Program-made: the position numbers and the translations under genes
Notes under the pieces: generated by a model
Database searches by the model: none
The model's input: only the letters and a program-made list of their open reading frames with translations
Told to the model about the DNA's origin: nothing
Part shown: piece by piece, positions 301 to 9,208 of the stretch
Numbering within the stretch: position 1 is the first letter of the stretch
Layout of the letters: each line of letters begins with the position of its first letter
NCBI GenBank assembly: GCA_902550225.1
Contig: CACCYL010000008.1
Coordinates: 1-64,000, forward strand
Direction of reading: 5' to 3'
Length of the DNA stretch: 64,000 bases
DNA from: an uncultured Alphaproteobacteria bacterium
Lineage (GTDB): Bacteria > Pseudomonadota > Alphaproteobacteria > Methylaequorales > Methylaequoraceae

Positions 301-440
301 ACCTTATAATTTCAAGTTATTCACAAAATTTCCATAGGACATTAAAAAATAGTCAAAAAAATAACACTAAATATTGTAAAAATTTGCATTCCAATCCCTA
401 TATTTTGTTAATTTCATGAATATTAGTAAATCTGTTTTAT

Positions 441-456
441 TGGCATTGTAATTGCA
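441..456 (+). promoter_or_regulatory. Sigma-54 (-24/-12) promoter of flagellin gene
   Basis: TGGCATTGTAATTGCA: GG-N10-GC spacing as in TGGCAC-N5-TTGCW; predicted +1 near 467, ATG at 492, SD AGGAG between. Confidence 0.8.
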
Positions 457-491
457 AAGATACAACGTGAAAAAATTTAGGAGAAATATAA

Positions 492-2051
492 ATGGTTAGC
501 GTAAGCACAGTAAATAGCCAAGCATCGCTAAAGCATATTATGAAAACAGAAAGAGAAATGCTCCAGGCAATGGAACGTATTTCTTCTGGAAGTAGAATTA
601 ATAATGCAGGTGATGATGCAGCTGGAGCAGCAATCAGTGATAGAATGTTAGCTACAGTTAGAGCTCTTGATATGTCAATAAGAAATGCATCAGATGTATT
701 ATCTATGGCTCAAGTAGCTGAAAGTGCAATTAATGAGCACTCTCAAGCATTACAAAGAATTAGAGAATTATCAATTCAAGCTGCAACAGACATATTGAAT
801 GCAGAACAAAGAATTTATTTACAAACAGAAGCAGATCAGTTGCTTCAAGAAATGGACAGAGTTGCAAGAGATACCACTTTTAATGAAATTGCTGTGCTAG
901 ACGGTACTTTTGCTGACAGACGTTTTCAAATAGGAACGCATGAACGAGAAAAAGCCGTAATCTCCGTGGCTAACATGAGAATAGATAAAATTGGTGCCTT
1001 TCAAAGCTCAACCAGTATGGATGAAGCAGGGACTGCTGGCAACCTAGCATCTGAAGGTGTTGTTGGTGCTAATAAAGCAGGAGCAGCTAGTAGGGTAACT
1101 ACAAATGATGACTTGACGATTACAGGTTTGGTTGGTCAAGCAACCGTAGGTCTTTCAGGCGGGGAATCAGCTAAAAGAATAGTCGAGTTAGTTAATAATA
1201 AATTTGATAATACAGGTGTAAGTGCTACTGCCACCACAACAATTAAAATTGAGGTCAATAGTAGTGATGCAGCCGGAGATCACGTCGTCGGATTTAATTT
1301 ATATGGTAAGAATACTGACGCTCAAGCTATTTCAGCTACAATTTCAGTTGGCTCAACCACAGCTGCCTCAGATCTAAGTAATCTGAGAGATGCAATAAAT
1401 GCTTATAGTGCCAATACCGGTATTAGAGCTACTTTAAGTGCAGATAAAACTAACATTATAATAGTTCAAGATGAAGGTGAAGATGTAGTTATTGAAGATG
1501 TAGATTTTGCAACTGTGACAAATGGAAATACAAAGTTTACATTTACCGCTATGTCTCAAGACCAAACTGATGAAGCAGCAACCCAGATTACAACAGTAAC
1601 TGATACACAACATGGAGCAAGTACGGATAGTGTTCGTTTTACTGGTCAAATTACATTTCATTCATCACAGACATTTACTATATCTGCTACTGCAGGACAA
1701 GGACTTTTCGAAGCCGCACCAGGCACGGCTACGTTAAATAAGGTTTCTACTATTGATATCAGAACTGTTTCTGGTGCTGTTGATGCATTAAAAGTAATAG
1801 ATAGGGCACTAGATAGAGTCCATATGGAACGTGCAAAGTTCGGAGCTATAATGAGTAGAATGAATGTTGTGATTGATAACCTCACCAATGTTTCTACAAA
1901 TCAAAAAACTTCTAGATCTCGAATAGTAGATGCTAATTTTGCAGCAGAATCAGCTAGATTGGCAAAATCACAAATTCTTCAACAGTCTGGAATGAATATG
2001 ATTTCTCAAGCATCACGAACAATGCAAAATGTACTAATTTTATTCCAGTAA
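492..2051 (+). CDS. Flagellin
   Basis: N-terminal ERISSGSRINNAGDDAAGAAISDRM and C-terminal DANFAAESARLAKSQILQQSGMNMISQAS flagellin signatures. Confidence 0.96.
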   Translation: MVSVSTVNSQASLKHIMKTEREMLQAMERISSGSRINNAGDDAAGAAISDRMLATVRALDMSIRNASDVLSMAQVAESAINEHSQALQRIRELSIQAATDILNAEQRIYLQTEADQLLQEMDRVARDTTFNEIAVLDGTFADRRFQIGTHEREKAVISVANMRIDKIGAFQSSTSMDEAGTAGNLASEGVVGANKAGAASRVTTNDDLTITGLVGQATVGLSGGESAKRIVELVNNKFDNTGVSATATTTIKIEVNSSDAAGDHVVGFNLYGKNTDAQAISATISVGSTTAASDLSNLRDAINAYSANTGIRATLSADKTNIIIVQDEGEDVVIEDVDFATVTNGNTKFTFTAMSQDQTDEAATQITTVTDTQHGASTDSVRFTGQITFHSSQTFTISATAGQGLFEAAPGTATLNKVSTIDIRTVSGAVDALKVIDRALDRVHMERAKFGAIMSRMNVVIDNLTNVSTNQKTSRSRIVDANFAAESARLAKSQILQQSGMNMISQASRTMQNVLILFQ

Positions 2052-2081
2052 AAAAAAACTAAATTGGGACGTTAGTATGAT

Positions 2082-3749
2082 ATGACCTCAGTTAATAACA
2101 GACCTGAAATTCTTTCTAAACTCGGTGTTGGTTCAGGATTAGATACGAGCGCTTTAATTGAAACTTTGGTTGAAGCTGAGATCGCTGGTCCAAAGGAGCA
2201 ACTTGAAAAAAGAGAATCAGATTTTTCTGCGCGAATTTCAGCCTTTTCACAAATTAAAAATAATTTAAAAGTTTTTAATGATAATTTAGCAATTATACAA
2301 AGCAATAACTCACTTGGGTATCAAGGCACAACCTCTGATTCTACAATTGCAACATTTTCAGCTAACGGAAACTCAGCTGCTTCGGCAATAAATTCTCAGC
2401 TAACAGTAAGCTCCTTAGCTACAGCTCATACACTTACTGGTCCAACGCTTTCTTCACCTAATAATACTGTTGGAGCTAGAACATTATCGATTACGTTTGG
2501 AACCTGGTCTGCAGATCCCACACAGGGAGGAGGACAGACCCACACCTCAAATGGTATGACAGCAATTTCAGTAACTGCCTCATCTACAACAACATTGAAT
2601 CAATTTCGAGACATGATCAACAATGCTGCAACAGATTCGAACAATGACGGAGAACAGGACGTTATTGCGTCGGTATTATATGATGGATCAAATTATATGC
2701 TGTCAATAAAAAGTCAGTTTGGTGCGGCTAATGAAATGAAGATTACCGATAATCATGCATCATCTCCAGTATATGCATACGATACAACAGATGGAGCTCA
2801 ACTCACGCAGAGGGTTGCAGGAACAGATTCTAGTTTTACAGTTGACGGAGTCAGTATGACAAGGGATTCAAATAGAATCGACGATTTATTTTCCGGCATG
2901 ACATTAGATTTATTGAAAACGTCCGGATCAGCAATCACAATTAAAAGTGAAGTAGATTTGGATGCAGCTCAAACGTCAATTCAGGATTTTGTGACAACTT
3001 ACAATGATGTAATGGCATCATTAGAAAATTTGAGAGTTGCAAACGATGAGGATGAAAATTCTGGAATATTGGCAGGTGACTCATTATTAAGAAGTATTCA
3101 AAATGATATGAGGTCAGCAAATGGAACTGCAATCAATGGATACGAAGGTGGCCCTTATTATTTGTCGAATCTTGGTGTTAGAACTAATAGGGACGGAACA
3201 TTGACTTTTGCAGATGCTGATGCACTTGAAAGAACATTTAAAAGTAACCCCAATTCACTATTGGCTTTTTTTAAAGATCAAATTGTTAGTGATAATCCTG
3301 ATATTAATCCATTGAGATATAGTATTTCTGATACTACTCCTGGATCATATGCTGTAAATGTAAGTTCTGGTTCTGGTACTATTGGCGGTGTTTCTGCTTC
3401 AGTTTCAGGAACAACATACTCAGTTTCGTCAGGAGATCCGAACGGATTAGCTCTTACTATTACAGCAAGTGATACATCAGGAACAATTCACTATGGTAGA
3501 AGTTTTATTTCAGAATTGCAGGACAAATTAGATGTTTATATCAAATTTGATGGATTGATACAAACCAGTTTAGACGGTTCAAAAAGTCGTCTTAGAGAGA
3601 TTGAAGATAAAAAATTAGCTCTTGATGAACGAATTGAAGCATTGTATGCAAGGTATCAAACACAATATTCTGCAATGGACAGCGTTATTGCAGGACTTAA
3701 TGAAACATCAGACCTATTAAAGAATGCATTCAAATCTGGTAAGGATTAA
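2082..3749 (+). CDS. fliD: Flagellar filament capping protein FliD
   Basis: LGVGSGLDTSALIETLVEAEIAGPKEQLEKRESDFSARISAFSQIKNNL N-terminus; C-terminal RLREIEDKKLALDERIEALYARYQTQYSAMDSVIAGLN. Confidence 0.93.
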   Translation: MTSVNNRPEILSKLGVGSGLDTSALIETLVEAEIAGPKEQLEKRESDFSARISAFSQIKNNLKVFNDNLAIIQSNNSLGYQGTTSDSTIATFSANGNSAASAINSQLTVSSLATAHTLTGPTLSSPNNTVGARTLSITFGTWSADPTQGGGQTHTSNGMTAISVTASSTTTLNQFRDMINNAATDSNNDGEQDVIASVLYDGSNYMLSIKSQFGAANEMKITDNHASSPVYAYDTTDGAQLTQRVAGTDSSFTVDGVSMTRDSNRIDDLFSGMTLDLLKTSGSAITIKSEVDLDAAQTSIQDFVTTYNDVMASLENLRVANDEDENSGILAGDSLLRSIQNDMRSANGTAINGYEGGPYYLSNLGVRTNRDGTLTFADADALERTFKSNPNSLLAFFKDQIVSDNPDINPLRYSISDTTPGSYAVNVSSGSGTIGGVSASVSGTTYSVSSGDPNGLALTITASDTSGTIHYGRSFISELQDKLDVYIKFDGLIQTSLDGSKSRLREIEDKKLALDERIEALYARYQTQYSAMDSVIAGLNETSDLLKNAFKSGKD

Positions 3750-3809
3750 AAACTAAATATTTTTACAATTCTGTCGTTTAAATTACTGAATAATTTATTT
3801 GGAGCAGTA

Positions 3810-4208
3810 ATGAAAAACGATTTAAAAGATATAAAGGGCTTATTTGTACTCGACAATCGAGAGGCGACACTCGAAGGTATCGAAAAAATTAAAAAAGCAA
3901 TTATTTACACTTCTAAGCAGATCAAGCAACTACATGATGGTGTTGTTGAAGAAAAAAATATTCCAACAATGTGCACAGCAATCATTAATAATTTCTTCTG
4001 GCTTGTCGATACCCTCGATAAGAGTAAAGAATCTCAACTAACTAAAGATTTAGATTATCTCTACAAACATTGTTTATTTTCAATAATAAGAGTTAGAGAT
4101 TTTAATGATTATGATTTTGTACCTGGATGCGTCAAAGTCTTAGAGGATATCTCAGAGAGTTGGGACAGAGTCTCACTTGCAGCAGACAAAGCTGAAGCTT
4201 TTGGTTAA
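3810..4208 (+). CDS. FliS-like flagellar chaperone
   Basis: 132 aa, helical, FliS-like size and pattern, directly after fliD. Confidence 0.55.
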   Translation: MKNDLKDIKGLFVLDNREATLEGIEKIKKAIIYTSKQIKQLHDGVVEEKNIPTMCTAIINNFFWLVDTLDKSKESQLTKDLDYLYKHCLFSIIRVRDFNDYDFVPGCVKVLEDISESWDRVSLAADKAEAFG

Positions 4209-4214
4209 TTATGA

Positions 4215-4979
4215 ATGTCCCTAGCACTCTATCCAGCAATTAAATTAGGAGAAACATCAGCCAAAATAAGAAGGTCGATTTCACGACTTACCACTGGGCT
4301 GAATATTCTCGCTGGTTCGTCAGCAGGTGACATGTCTCAGGGTGTGGGACTCAAGGCCAAAGGAAAATCAAATCAACAAGTAGTTTCCTCTGCACAAGTA
4401 GCATTAGATTTGCTTTCAAGTGCTGAATCTGCACTCATTGAATTGGCGGCATTAGCCACAAGATTAAGGGAAATAGGAATTGCAGATACAAATTCAACAA
4501 ATGATGCATCAGATACTGCGGCATTAAATGCAGAAGCAATTTCAGTCAGCGACTCCATAGATGCAATAGTATCTTCTGCAAAATTTCATAACATTGCAAT
4601 TCTTGGCACAAGCGCAAAAACTTTCGATGTAACCAGGGATGCAGACGGCAACACAACAACTATAAAAACTACAGATGGTATTACTGCTACGAATGTATCT
4701 GATGCCACTGGTTCAAACTCAACAGCTGATACAGCAATAGGAGAAATACAAACCTCACTGGGTCATGTTTCTGGTCATTTAACTTCAGTGGGTGGATTTC
4801 AGAATACCGCAAGTGCATTAGCTTCAATTGAATTAGAGTCGGCAGCGAGATTAATGGATACAAACTTTGCAGTTGAAACAGCAAAGTTGATGAAAAATAC
4901 TTTAATACAAAAATATGCAACAAGTATGGTCACTAAAGCTAATGAAGTTGAAGAAAATAAAAAGTTATTAATTCTCTAA
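4215..4979 (+). CDS. Divergent short flagellin
   Basis: RSISRLTTGLNILAGSSAGDMSQGVGLKAK and MDTNFAVETAKLMKNTLIQKYATSMVTKANE resemble flagellin termini. Confidence 0.8.
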   Translation: MSLALYPAIKLGETSAKIRRSISRLTTGLNILAGSSAGDMSQGVGLKAKGKSNQQVVSSAQVALDLLSSAESALIELAALATRLREIGIADTNSTNDASDTAALNAEAISVSDSIDAIVSSAKFHNIAILGTSAKTFDVTRDADGNTTTIKTTDGITATNVSDATGSNSTADTAIGEIQTSLGHVSGHLTSVGGFQNTASALASIELESAARLMDTNFAVETAKLMKNTLIQKYATSMVTKANEVEENKKLLIL

Positions 4980-5021
4980 ACAATTAGAATCTTAGTCGTT
5001 TAATATTTTAGAAAAGGAGTA

Positions 5022-5408
5022 ATGGAAATGGAAAAACAAAATATTACAAAAAAAGTTGAGGAAAAAAATGAACTTAGTTCAAAAGAAAGACATAATATAA
5101 TTCTAAAATTATATAAAGGATTAAGTGACAATCTTGAAGAATTAAACAAATCAAAAGATAAAAAGGGATCTAATGCCACACAGATTGCATACAAAGTGGA
5201 TAGAATTGCATCTGGCCTTCAGGTTACATTAGACTTTAGCAATGAAGAATCAAAGAGTATAAGTGAAAACTTTAGAGAACTATACAGGCACATAAGATTT
5301 GCAATGAAAATGATTTACGAAAAACAAGAATATGTTCTCTTAGACTCTTCAAGAGAAATTGCAAAAACGCTTTATCAATCTTGGGCTAAAATCAAACCCT
5401 CTATTTAG
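5022..5408 (+). CDS. FliS-like flagellar chaperone
   Basis: IILKLYKGLSDNLEEL...VDRIASGLQVTLDF...ISENFRELYRHIRFAM matches FliS layout. Confidence 0.65.
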   Translation: MEMEKQNITKKVEEKNELSSKERHNIILKLYKGLSDNLEELNKSKDKKGSNATQIAYKVDRIASGLQVTLDFSNEESKSISENFRELYRHIRFAMKMIYEKQEYVLLDSSREIAKTLYQSWAKIKPSI

Positions 5409-5447
5409 TGTTTGTTATTTTTTTTCAATACCATAGAATGTTAATTC

Positions 5448-7154
5448 ATGGTTGGAAAAATAATTTCGGTAATTCTGACTGGACTAGTTGTTGGATCATC
5501 TGTTGCAGTACTAGTCCAGATTTTTCTTTACTCAATTAATTCTTTATCTAATATATTTAGGACAGACTTTACTGATTTAGTCAATCAACAACACTTTAGT
5601 ATAAACGAATTAGTCATAAAGATTATTTTTTTCTTTTTGATTGTACCTTTTTTGGTAGGACTTTTAGTTGGAATAATAAGAAACTTTACAAAAGGAAAAA
5701 GATGGCATGGTCCCCCAGATGTTATTTTATCGGTCCATAAAGATGACGAGGAATTAAATGTTAAATCAGGTTTTTTAACATCAATAGCATCAATTTTATC
5801 AATATCATGCGGAAGTTCTGTTGGACAGTATGGACCACTGGTTCATTTTGGTGGGACCATTGGCGCAGAAATAAAAAAACTATTTTCCTATGCACCTGAT
5901 TATAAAATTTTAGTCAGTTCTGGAGTAGCTTCTGCAATTTCTGCTGGTTTTGGAGCACCTTTAGCTGGTTTAATTTATGCACGTGAAGTGGTACTTCGCC
6001 ATCAATCTTTAGCGAGTTTTTCACCCATTTTATTGTCGTCAATTATTTCTTATTTTTTTACAGTAGAAATTTTTGAATATGAACCATCATTAAATATTCC
6101 AACTGTCACAGGAAATAATGCAATAAATGTAATTGTAATAATTCTAGCGGGAATATTTGCAGGTCTCTTAGCAAGTTTATATTCATATTTGTTAACTAAT
6201 AAAAATTTTAATTTTCTCAATAATGTAGGTTCGAAATCATATTTAACCCCTGCATATGCTGGAGTAATTTGTGGTATAGTTGCCATTAAGTTTCCCGAGG
6301 TGACCGGTATCGGATCTCAAACAATTAATGATTTATTAAATAATAAAATAACATTAAATCTTGCTTTAATATTTTTAGTTTTGAAATTGTTTTTAACTAC
6401 TTTGTGTATAAGGATGGGTCTTGTGGGGGGTATATTTGCTCCAGCGTTATTTTTAGGTGCAAGTTTAGGAGTGGTTTCTGCTGGTTTGGGAACACTTCTT
6501 TCAGAGAATGTTAATCCCTTTTTAATAATTTTATCTTCAATGGCTGCATTAGGAAGTTGTATAATTGGAGGGCCAATTGCAAATGTACTGATAGTTTTTG
6601 AGTTAACGTCTAATTATCAGGCTGCACTATCTGCAGGAGTGTGTATCGTTGTTGCGACAATAGTTTCATCGCAATTGATTGGCCAATCAACATTTGACCA
6701 ACTTTTAAACAACCGTAACATAGACATTACAGTAGGAAGAGACATTTTATTTCTGCAAAGAAAAAAAATTAAAGAAATTGTTGATAAAGATTTTCTTAAA
6801 ATTGATGGAAATATTACGGTCAAAGAAGCCATCGAAATGTTTAAAACTTTTGAGTGCAGTGAAGCATACTATGTTGGTTTGAATGATAAACTTTTAGGTA
6901 AACTCTCTTTGCCAAAATTACTATCGTACAATAACGATTTAAAAATTAAGGACATAAAAAAAACTAAGTTTTTAAAAATCAATGATGATGAAGATTTATC
7001 AAAAACGATTCAAAAATGTAAAGATTTCGTAGGTGAATCGATACCTGTTGTCGACAATAAAGGAAAAATAATAGGCATTTTTAGTGAAAACGATCTTTTT
7101 GTGAGTTATCTTGAGGCAGAGGAATTTAGAGCTGACGTGGAGACTAAATCCTAA
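5448..7154 (+). CDS. ClC-family chloride channel/antiporter with C-terminal CBS domains
   Basis: CGSSVGQYGPLVHFGG, GFGAPLAGLIYAREV, GGIFAPALFLGASLG ClC motifs; CBS-like tail. Confidence 0.93.
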   Translation: MVGKIISVILTGLVVGSSVAVLVQIFLYSINSLSNIFRTDFTDLVNQQHFSINELVIKIIFFFLIVPFLVGLLVGIIRNFTKGKRWHGPPDVILSVHKDDEELNVKSGFLTSIASILSISCGSSVGQYGPLVHFGGTIGAEIKKLFSYAPDYKILVSSGVASAISAGFGAPLAGLIYAREVVLRHQSLASFSPILLSSIISYFFTVEIFEYEPSLNIPTVTGNNAINVIVIILAGIFAGLLASLYSYLLTNKNFNFLNNVGSKSYLTPAYAGVICGIVAIKFPEVTGIGSQTINDLLNNKITLNLALIFLVLKLFLTTLCIRMGLVGGIFAPALFLGASLGVVSAGLGTLLSENVNPFLIILSSMAALGSCIIGGPIANVLIVFELTSNYQAALSAGVCIVVATIVSSQLIGQSTFDQLLNNRNIDITVGRDILFLQRKKIKEIVDKDFLKIDGNITVKEAIEMFKTFECSEAYYVGLNDKLLGKLSLPKLLSYNNDLKIKDIKKTKFLKINDDEDLSKTIQKCKDFVGESIPVVDNKGKIIGIFSENDLFVSYLEAEEFRADVETKS

Positions 7155-7491
7155 AATCAATACTATTTTTTTGTTGTTTTGAAGTAGTTTTTAGTGAGGA
7201 TATCATGAGATACTTTGTTATGCTCTCGTTATGAAAGTATATTGGACTAAAAAGTTCCCTTGATTTTAGAAACGCTTCAGTACTGATCCCGTTACTTGGT
7301 GCTAATTTTGGGCTATAAATCTTTTTTTTTAGTAATTCTGAGTTTTCTCTATTATAAGAGCTTAAATTATGATTATCTCCGACTTCTCTAATAATATTTC
7401 TATTATTAACTGGATGTGGCATACCTTTTGCTACATTATCAACAAATTGATTAGCAATTGGATCAACATAGTTATAATTTGGATTGATCAT
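7144..7491 (-). CDS. Hypothetical protein between ClC gene and flagellar chaperone gene
   Basis: 115-aa ORF, no recognised family; overlaps the ClC stop by 11 nt. Confidence 0.45.
   Translation of the reverse strand: MINPNYNYVDPIANQFVDNVAKGMPHPVNNRNIIREVGDNHNLSSYNRENSELLKKKIYSPKLAPSNGISTEAFLKSRELFSPIYFHNESITKYLMISSLKTTSKQQKNSIDFRI
7417..7432 (+). promoter_or_regulatory. Sigma-54 promoter candidate for the fliS/fliT-like pair
   Basis: TGGCATACCTTTTGCT, exact GG-N10-GC spacing, 76 nt upstream of the 7508 ATG. Confidence 0.65.
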
Positions 7492-7507
7492 TTAGGAATA
7501 ATAACCT

Positions 7508-7909
7508 ATGAAACTAAGTCAAGCAAAGAAATATTACAAAAAAAGTCAAAATGACGGTTTGGAAAACGTTAATCCATTCGAAATTTTTAAAAAAATTAAT
7601 TATGAGCTTCTTAGATCGTTAAAGATTGTTTCTCAAAAAATTAATGAAAAGACGATTGATGATGTAAGACAAAAAAACTTCACAAAAGCTCTTACAATAA
7701 TCTATACACTTCAGACAAGTCTTGATTTTGATAAAGAATTAAAATTATCCTCTGATTTATTCAGATTTTATGAATATTGCAGAAAAAAACTTATTGAGGG
7801 AATCACAAGTCTTAAAAGTAAAGAAATTATGAAATCAGCCGTTAATTTAGATAAGATGTTTGATTTTAATTATATTCAATCAGATGAGGAAATAAATGCT
7901 ATCAGATAA
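7508..7909 (+). CDS. fliS: Flagellar chaperone FliS-like
   Basis: NPFEIFKKINYELLRSLKIV...ALTIIYTLQTSLDF...SSDLFRFYEYCRKKLIEG resembles FliS. Confidence 0.75.
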   Translation: MKLSQAKKYYKKSQNDGLENVNPFEIFKKINYELLRSLKIVSQKINEKTIDDVRQKNFTKALTIIYTLQTSLDFDKELKLSSDLFRFYEYCRKKLIEGITSLKSKEIMKSAVNLDKMFDFNYIQSDEEINAIR

Positions 7910-8228
7910 ATTTGTACAAGAGGATTTGTCAAGTAATGAAAATTTGTCGAAACAAATTATAAGACTCGAAGAATTAAGTATATCGATGACAAGCTTAATT
8001 GAAAGCGGTAATTCTCATAAAATTGCTCATTTAGAAAAAATTAGACAGAAAATTCTCAAGGATATTATTAAAAATAAAAAACCAATTTCAACTAATGACA
8101 AACCAAGGATTTCTAATATTTTTTTCCTTAATGATAAAATGATTGATTTAGTGAGACAACAGAAAACAGAGACACTAGGTAGAATTAAAAAAAAAATTAA
8201 GTTCTACAAATCTTATAAAGACATGTAA
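7896..8228 (+). CDS. FliT-like flagellar chaperone
   Basis: IIRLEELSISMTSLIESGNSHKIAHLEKIRQKILKDI resembles FliT; overlaps the fliS-like gene. Confidence 0.5.
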   Translation: MLSDKFVQEDLSSNENLSKQIIRLEELSISMTSLIESGNSHKIAHLEKIRQKILKDIIKNKKPISTNDKPRISNIFFLNDKMIDLVRQQKTETLGRIKKKIKFYKSYKDM

Positions 8229-8344
8229 TTTACAATTTATTTCATGAATTTATAAACGATTATTAATCCTTACTTTTTTTTAAATTAAGTAATACGGAGT
8301 GTTAAATTAAATATCACTTACTGTAATTTGATTTAAAAAATTTG

Positions 8345-9181
8345 CTAAATGGAAAAATTCATGTATTGCATTTGTGATCTTTTGTTAGCCAAAGGTTCAT
8401 AAATTACTTCTGATTTCGAGTTAAAAACTGGAAATCGATTCCACATGTTTAGAAGAAAATTAACATTCTTATTTTTATGATTTTTTGGAGGTTTAAACAT
8501 TAAGCCAATTTTAGGATTTTCACTATTTTTATGTTCAACATGAGTTTTTATTACCTCACAATTGTGTGTGATTAAAGTTACAAGTTTAACTTTTATTCCT
8601 GGTTTTAAGAAAATAGGGGATCGTTCTTGATGCTTTTGACTCCATCTGTAACCTGTTTCTGTTCTTTCATCTAAAGAGAAATTTTTTGCTTTTTTTACAA
8701 TGAATGAATTCTCTACGCCTGCAATAGACATCATCTTTCCTTTTTTACAATCAAAACCAGCATATATTAATATCTGCAAAAAGACCGGTAAAATTGTTGT
8801 TGAAATATGTCCTTCAACAAATGCTTCTGCTTCATGAGTTGGGCCAGAAATAACTAAATCACCTTCATCTTTTAAAATGTCGTAAATTTTGTCAAGAAAT
8901 GCACCCTGATTTCTTTGATGTTCAATTACATGAGAACAAAATATCATATCATATTTTTTCTTGAAATTAAAAGTATTGAAGTCTCCTCTAAATTCTGCTT
9001 TTTCTTCATATTTATCAATTAAATCAACAGATAATCCAAATGATCGCATTACTTCGCTGTGGTTTCCAAAGGCTCCACCAATGTCAAGGACCTCAAATTT
9101 TTTGGGAAATTTTTTTTTGGAAAGTAGATATTCTAATAAAGCAAACCCTCCCCAATCAAGTTTTGGAAAATTTTTTTTCAT
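8345..9181 (-). CDS. Class I SAM-dependent methyltransferase
   Basis: FEVLDIGGAFGNHSEVMRSFG motif I and YDMIFCSHVIEH; ATG at 9181 preferred over the TTG at 9208. Confidence 0.8.
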   Translation of the reverse strand: MKKNFPKLDWGGFALLEYLLSKKKFPKKFEVLDIGGAFGNHSEVMRSFGLSVDLIDKYEEKAEFRGDFNTFNFKKKYDMIFCSHVIEHQRNQGAFLDKIYDILKDEGDLVISGPTHEAEAFVEGHISTTILPVFLQILIYAGFDCKKGKMMSIAGVENSFIVKKAKNFSLDERTETGYRWSQKHQERSPIFLKPGIKVKLVTLITHNCEVIKTHVEHKNSENPKIGLMFKPPKNHKNKNVNFLLNMWNRFPVFNSKSEVIYEPLANKRSQMQYMNFSI

Positions 9182-9192
9182 AAATTTGTTGA

Positions 9193-9208
9193 GCAATATT
9201 AATGCCAA
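9193..9208 (-). promoter_or_regulatory. Sigma-54 promoter candidate for methyltransferase
   Basis: Minus-strand TTGGCATTAATATTGC, GG-N10-GC spacing; predicted +1 falls on the A of the ATG at 9181. Confidence 0.5.

Follow-up and report, generated by a model that had tools for sequence, protein, structure and literature searches.

Sigma-54 sites in the flagellar section of the window

The window analyzed here is a 64-kb stretch from the draft genome of an uncultured marine alphaproteobacterium (1.2 Mb, 27 contigs, 63% complete). The elements in question are three putative sigma-54 (RpoN) promoters of the -24/-12 type in its flagellar section, lying before a flagellin, a FliS chaperone and a methyltransferase gene (Table 1). 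Positions 492 to 7909 encode the flagellin, FliD, three FliS-like proteins and a small flagellin-like protein. A sequence-only reading had picked out the three sites by eye, and a pattern scan with TGGCAT-N5-TTGCW, then with TGGCAY-N5-TTGCW, recovered them at 441-456 (+), 7417-7432 (+) and 9207-9192 (-), all with exact GG-N10-GC spacing; the end at 9193 first given for the third site was off by one. No further exact TGGCAY-N5-TTGCW site occurs in the 64 kb, and for this exact motif the claim that the window holds no other correctly spaced match was correct. Three exact matches to TGGCAT-N5-TTGCW stand against 0.08 expected (approximately 40-fold), and 0 of 100 shuffled sequences reached three. 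Pfam matches bear out the flagellin, FliS and methyltransferase named downstream, but not the fliT-like partner at 7896-8228. By every available sequence test, the three sites are well supported as predicted sigma-54 promoters. Two of the places had been called unexpected, but the structure there had been missed: one promoter lies inside a divergent gene (at fliS), and the other has its predicted transcription start (+1) at the start codon (at the methyltransferase).

Table 1. Features of the flagellar section, in window coordinates
Feature	Position	Strand	Details
Candidate activator site GTCAAAAAAATAAC	352..365	.	One mismatch to FleQ-type palindrome GTCA-N6-TGAC; about -115 of flagellin promoter
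Sigma-54 -24/-12 element TGGCATTGTAATTGCA, flagellin promoter	441..456	+	Exact motif; predicted +1 about 467; GC to ATG 36 nucleotides (nt)
Flagellin	492..2051	+	Pfam Flagellin_N E 4e-32, Flagellin_C E 3e-19
Conserved protein of 115 amino acids (aa), divergent from fliS	7144..7491	-	Orthologues of 106-116 aa in 9 relatives; no Pfam match
Sigma-54 -24/-12 element TGGCATACCTTTTGCT, fliS promoter	7417..7432	+	Exact motif; predicted +1 about 7443
FliS-type flagellar chaperone	7508..7909	+	Pfam FliS E 6e-11
Small open reading frame (ORF) overlapping fliS end	7896..8228	+	fliT-like by position only; no significant family match
Class I S-adenosylmethionine methyltransferase	8345..9181	-	Pfam Methyltransf_23 E 7e-14; predicted leaderless mRNA
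Sigma-54 -24/-12 element TGGCATTAATATTGCT, methyltransferase promoter	9192..9207	-	Exact motif; C(-12) at 9193

The flagellin site forms an invariant island between diverged flanks in five congeners, and sites at the orthologous place in nine relatives are followed by a long leader in every one. The fliS promoter falls in codons 21 to 25 of the divergent ORF and recurs at the orthologous place in nine relatives despite changes in the overlapping peptide. It is conceivable that this site is no promoter and that its letters are conserved only as coding sequence for the divergent small protein, since the peptide A-x-x-(M/V)-P encoded there is also conserved in nine relatives. We consider this unlikely, because 9/9 relatives use GCA for the Ala and CCA for the Pro although synonymous positions nearby vary, and the site is kept at locus L111 although the residues around it differ; a sigma-54 site at fliS is also consistent with the regulon described below. 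Invariant codons amid variable neighbors favor a double function, as putative promoter and as coding sequence.

At the methyltransferase, the predicted +1 is position 9181, the A of the ATG, and the promoter abuts the gene because the message is predicted to be leaderless. An in-frame start codon lies 11 to 14 nt after the sigma-54 GC in 20 of 24 homologous loci, and M1 is invariant in an alignment of seven homologues. As this spacing persists down to approximately 50% identity and in differing gene neighborhoods, gene and promoter appear to move together. Close homologues come from uncultured marine Alphaproteobacteria, both single-cell and metagenome-assembled genomes, some labelled Rickettsiales (marine, single-cell or bin origin as read from isolate names). 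Judged solely from co-regulation, the enzyme possibly modifies flagellin or a surface glycan.

The neighborhood has further features of its own. Three distinct FliS-like chaperone genes (3810-4208, 5022-5408 and 7508-7909) lie within about 4 kb, near the full flagellin, the end of another flagellin and a short flagellin-like gene. An ORF of 568 aa at 5448-7154, amid the flagellar genes, resembles by eye a ClC-type chloride channel with CBS domains, and its orthologue adjoins fliS at two further loci (L183 and L194).

Regulon membership and start-codon spacing

The draft genome was scanned by pattern, and stretches around the matches were taken for analysis. Nine strict sigma-54 sites were found, with no match to the reversed pattern. 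They precede the flagellin, fliS, the methyltransferase, the PII gene (glnB) followed by the glutamine synthetase gene (glnA), flgG, flgF, flhA, a family-2 glycosyltransferase gene and one non-coding stretch, and each of the nine has a counterpart at the orthologous place in congeners. Relatives add sites at flgB, fliK, the gene of the FliB flagellin lysine-N-methylase (NCBIfam E 9e-63), a lytic transglycosylase gene and others. The sequence-only reading had proposed a sigma-54 flagellar regulon. Sigma-54 promoters and a flagellar core (five of the nine sites) were found, but the regulon is not purely flagellar, because sites also lie at glnB-glnA, a candidate small RNA and glycan- or methyl-transfer genes; it combines flagellar, nitrogen and surface modification functions. 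The same reading suggested that TGGCAT may be a lineage-specific variant. This was rejected: orthologous sites have either T or C as the sixth base, those of the flagellin reading TGGCAC in several congeners, and the genus has a T:C ratio of 57:13 at this base and the family one of 45:21. The wrong spacings N4, N6 and N7 gave 2 to 3 sites versus 137 to 142 for N5 in the same loci, which had been picked around N5 sites.

Since sigma-54 starts at a nearly fixed distance from its promoter, the spacing from GC to ATG can be read straight from the DNA. We compiled 114 non-redundant sites of the family that are followed within 120 nt by an ORF starting with ATG, taking +1 from the general -24/-12 rule, from which actual sigma-54 starts may deviate by a few nucleotides. 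The distances are sharply bimodal: 45 of the 114 (approximately 40%) are 10 to 14 nt, which places the ATG at +1 to +4, none fall at 5 to 9 or 15 to 19 nt, and the rest are mostly 25 to 47 or 75 to 90 nt. The empty bins would fit a message that either starts at the ATG or leaves room for a ribosome-binding site. Five large gene groups (the methyltransferase, glnB, flgF, fliB and the lytic transglycosylase beside rpoN) have the ATG 11 to 14 nt after the GC, and the start codons of flagellin, flgG, flgB, fliK and fliS lie 25 to 90 nt after it. GlnB, FlgF, FliB, the lytic transglycosylase and the methyltransferase are accordingly spaced as genes predicted to be translated from leaderless mRNAs. 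The case is firmest for GlnB, because the first residue of this protein coincides in alignment with that of solved PII proteins. Mapped sigma-54 starts in C. jejuni, 8 to 13 nt after TTGCTt (PMC3847290), are compatible with an ATG at +1 to +4.

An alternative is that the short-spacing genes are translated from leaders after all, with the main promoter further upstream and the sigma-54 start minor or regulatory. Dual promoters are common, with 305 starts in B. japonicum carrying both sigma-70 and sigma-54 motifs (PMC4842269), and transcription starts in the present lineage are predictions from DNA. Such an arrangement nevertheless leaves unexplained why the ATG lies at 11 to 14 nt in unrelated genes across genera while adjoining distance bins are empty, and a Shine-Dalgarno-like tetramer precedes the ATG in none of the short-spacing genes. 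We therefore rate it improbable relative to leaderless translation from the sigma-54 start.

The leaderless spacing is not a design of the whole class, which was rejected when 157 of 289 genomes had matches at the leaderless spacing versus 159 at the control spacing. Four genomes of the family gave 4, 4, 4 and 5 matches at the leaderless spacing and none at the control spacing (17 versus 0), and in view of both results the design looks family-specific among the genomes sampled. The base after the GC (-11, A or T), a position that matters for RpoN specificity in Cereibacter (PMC11999139), is mostly T in the five large leaderless groups and A in 5 of 7 large leadered groups; as a marker of the two classes it is only suggestive, the test across all groups being not significant (P = 0.43). 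A test for leaderless genes behind sigma-70 promoters gave no signal with longest-ORF starts. When all candidate ATGs were considered, -10-like boxes peaked 6 nt before the ATG (16 versus 2.5 in controls), and the lineage may also use leaderless mRNAs from ordinary promoters.

With two or fewer mismatches allowed, the window holds 60 sites versus 47 ± 7 by chance, a slight excess so close to noise that only exact sites carry weight. That the window matches are chance occurrences in AT-rich DNA, to which this weak excess and a few sites in relatives without orthologous support might point, is practically refuted by the approximately 40-fold excess of exact matches and by the orthologous counterparts of all nine genomic sites.

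Two arrangements at other promoters were also observed. In most relatives (L009, L063, L094, L128, L135 and L168), the GC of the flhA promoter is followed at 12 to 14 nt by the start of an upstream ORF of 23 to 30 codons, the end of which sometimes overlaps the flhA start (TGATG); this ORF may encode a leaderless leader peptide with coupling to flhA. The second arrangement is at flgB, where a reverse-strand TGGTTT(G/A)GAATTTGC overlaps the forward site TGGCATTTAATTTGCA. In eight relatives (L063:14477 and the orthologues L080, L095, L105, L129, L136, L158 and L167) these two sites have TTTGCAAA in common, and they are possibly a divergent sigma-54 promoter pair.

Sigma factor, activators and known systems

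The rpoN gene was found in 9 of 12 congeners and 44 of 60 relatives. The RpoN of a congener has 487 aa and all three sigma-54 Pfam domains, and its gene is flanked on one side by MotA/MotB-like genes and on the other by a small lytic-transglycosylase gene that has a separate sigma-54 site; rpoN lies beside flagellar genes in the congeners examined. Two activators with GAFTGA are divergently encoded in congeners and adjoin fliF/fliG-like genes. In congener G011 one has 394 aa, an AAA+ domain and no detectable DNA-binding domain, and the other has 354 aa, AAA+ and HTH_8 domains and no N-terminal domain. This is the composition of a FleQ/FleT-type pair, in which one partner lacks the DNA-binding domain and the other has it, and the FleT of Rhodobacter is such an activator paired with FleQ (PMC11999139). 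Two further activators in congeners are probably NtrC and NtrX, judged by size and pairing.

A candidate binding site for such an activator is seen at two promoters. In 8/8 genomes a perfect GTCA-N6-TGAC is present downstream of the flhA promoter, at +47 to +79, and fits the published FleQ consensus GTCaNTAAAtTGAC (PMC6120874); flhA is a known FleQ target bound near or downstream of its promoter (Jyot 2002, as cited in PMC6120874 and PMC5026340). The one-mismatch box before the flagellin holds position -115/-116 in 5/5 congeners. One-mismatch boxes in the window number 13 versus 13.4 expected, and because such a match alone is at chance level, the box at 352-365 is only tentatively assigned as an activator site of the flagellin. 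A FleQ-type box at every sigma-54 site was rejected, as positions are constant only at flhA and the flagellin. The one-mismatch box of the candidate small RNA overlaps the conserved hairpin region of that RNA itself.

By its arrangement, the system resembles the fla1 FleQ/FleT-RpoN2 system of Rhodobacter (Cereibacter) sphaeroides, with sigma-54 and two activators, one of them without a DNA-binding domain, beside fli basal-body genes, and with a sigma-28-like gene downstream of flhA in the hierarchy. It differs in having one rpoN match per congener rather than four, a sigma-54 instead of a sigma-28 promoter at the flagellin, and many targets predicted to be leaderless. It shares with the FleQ-RpoN system of Pseudomonas the order flhA, flhF-like, flhG-like and fliA-like behind a sigma-54 promoter and the GTCA-N6-TGAC box downstream of the flhA start, but in congeners a short ORF (ATG 12 nt after GC) precedes flhA, and the helix-turn-helix activator lacks the FleQ N-terminal domain. 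As in the FlbD-sigma-54 system of Caulobacter, hook, rod and flagellin genes of an alphaproteobacterium are under predicted sigma-54 control. Caulobacter flbD adjoins fliF/fliG. However, the activators found here score 293 and 276 bits, and neither reaches the NCBIfam FlbD cut-off of 750 bits. Leaderless mRNAs are widespread in Alphaproteobacteria, with 171 in S. meliloti and 192 to 320 in B. japonicum (PMC3616915, PMC4842269), and the predicted messages described here resemble them in having the start codon at the 5′ end. The motif before the leaderless genes of B. japonicum, in contrast, is an extended -10 box, and both maps treat leaderless mRNAs and sigma-54 promoters separately (PMC3616915, PMC4842269). 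We found no literature on a leaderless class of sigma-54 promoters in a search that left supplementary tables and most subscription journals outside.

The non-coding sigma-54 site is conserved, and behind it lies a two-stem RNA whose invariant loop includes UUUCCUCCC (anti-Shine-Dalgarno), at L005:1501-1620 (host contig C10 near 10034) and at L058, L118, L139, L160, L176 and L177. Orthologues occur in genus and family, and an Rfam search returned no matching family; we regard the element as a candidate sigma-54-driven small RNA. A role as flagellin regulator was not supported, the flagellin ranking 15 of 87 in duplex energy.

Two predicted promoter designs in one regulon

Building on the observed motif and spacing, their conservation, the bimodal distances, and the rpoN and activator genes of congeners, we think it likely that the three window sites are -24/-12 promoters of one RpoN regulon, with leaderless and leadered sigma-54 promoters, that covers the flagellum, its accessory genes and nitrogen assimilation; transcription starts, leaderless translation and the assignment of activators are the inferred parts of this scheme. 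In the leadered design, used at structural genes such as the flagellin gene, a start codon 25 to 90 nt past the GC would leave room for a leader, often with a Shine-Dalgarno site. In the leaderless design, with the start codon 11 to 14 nt past the GC, at +1 to +4, RNA polymerase would make a leaderless mRNA. A FleQ-like/FleT-like pair would most likely act on the flagellar genes, and NtrC on glnB and the small RNA.

Several points weigh against this scheme. A recognizable activator site is missing at most promoters, one glnB orthologue (L142) has a distance of 35 nt instead of 11 to 14 nt, and the starts are predicted from DNA with a possible variation of a few nucleotides. Further, neither rpoN nor a true activator was found in the 63% complete host draft, although both were found in congeners. 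Lack of rpoN from the genome had been named as a refutation of the sequence-only reading, but here it concerns an incomplete draft; given how often rpoN occurs in congeners and relatives, its absence is best read as incompleteness. A far more speculative extension, to which we give little credence, is that in this marine family sigma-54 deliberately yields mRNAs of two translational classes, those of bulk structural proteins having leaders and those of regulators and modification enzymes having none, and that the small RNA, with its exposed CCUCCC loop, could dampen the leadered class and spare the leaderless one.

What is new here is a conserved class of predicted leaderless messages in a sigma-54 regulon, a leaderless start being unusual for this promoter type. 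The spacing splits the whole regulon into leaderless and leadered members with almost nothing between, and so the systematic use of leaderless messages by an enhancer-dependent regulon becomes testable. Collectively, the sites also map out motility control for a marine lineage that has not been cultured.

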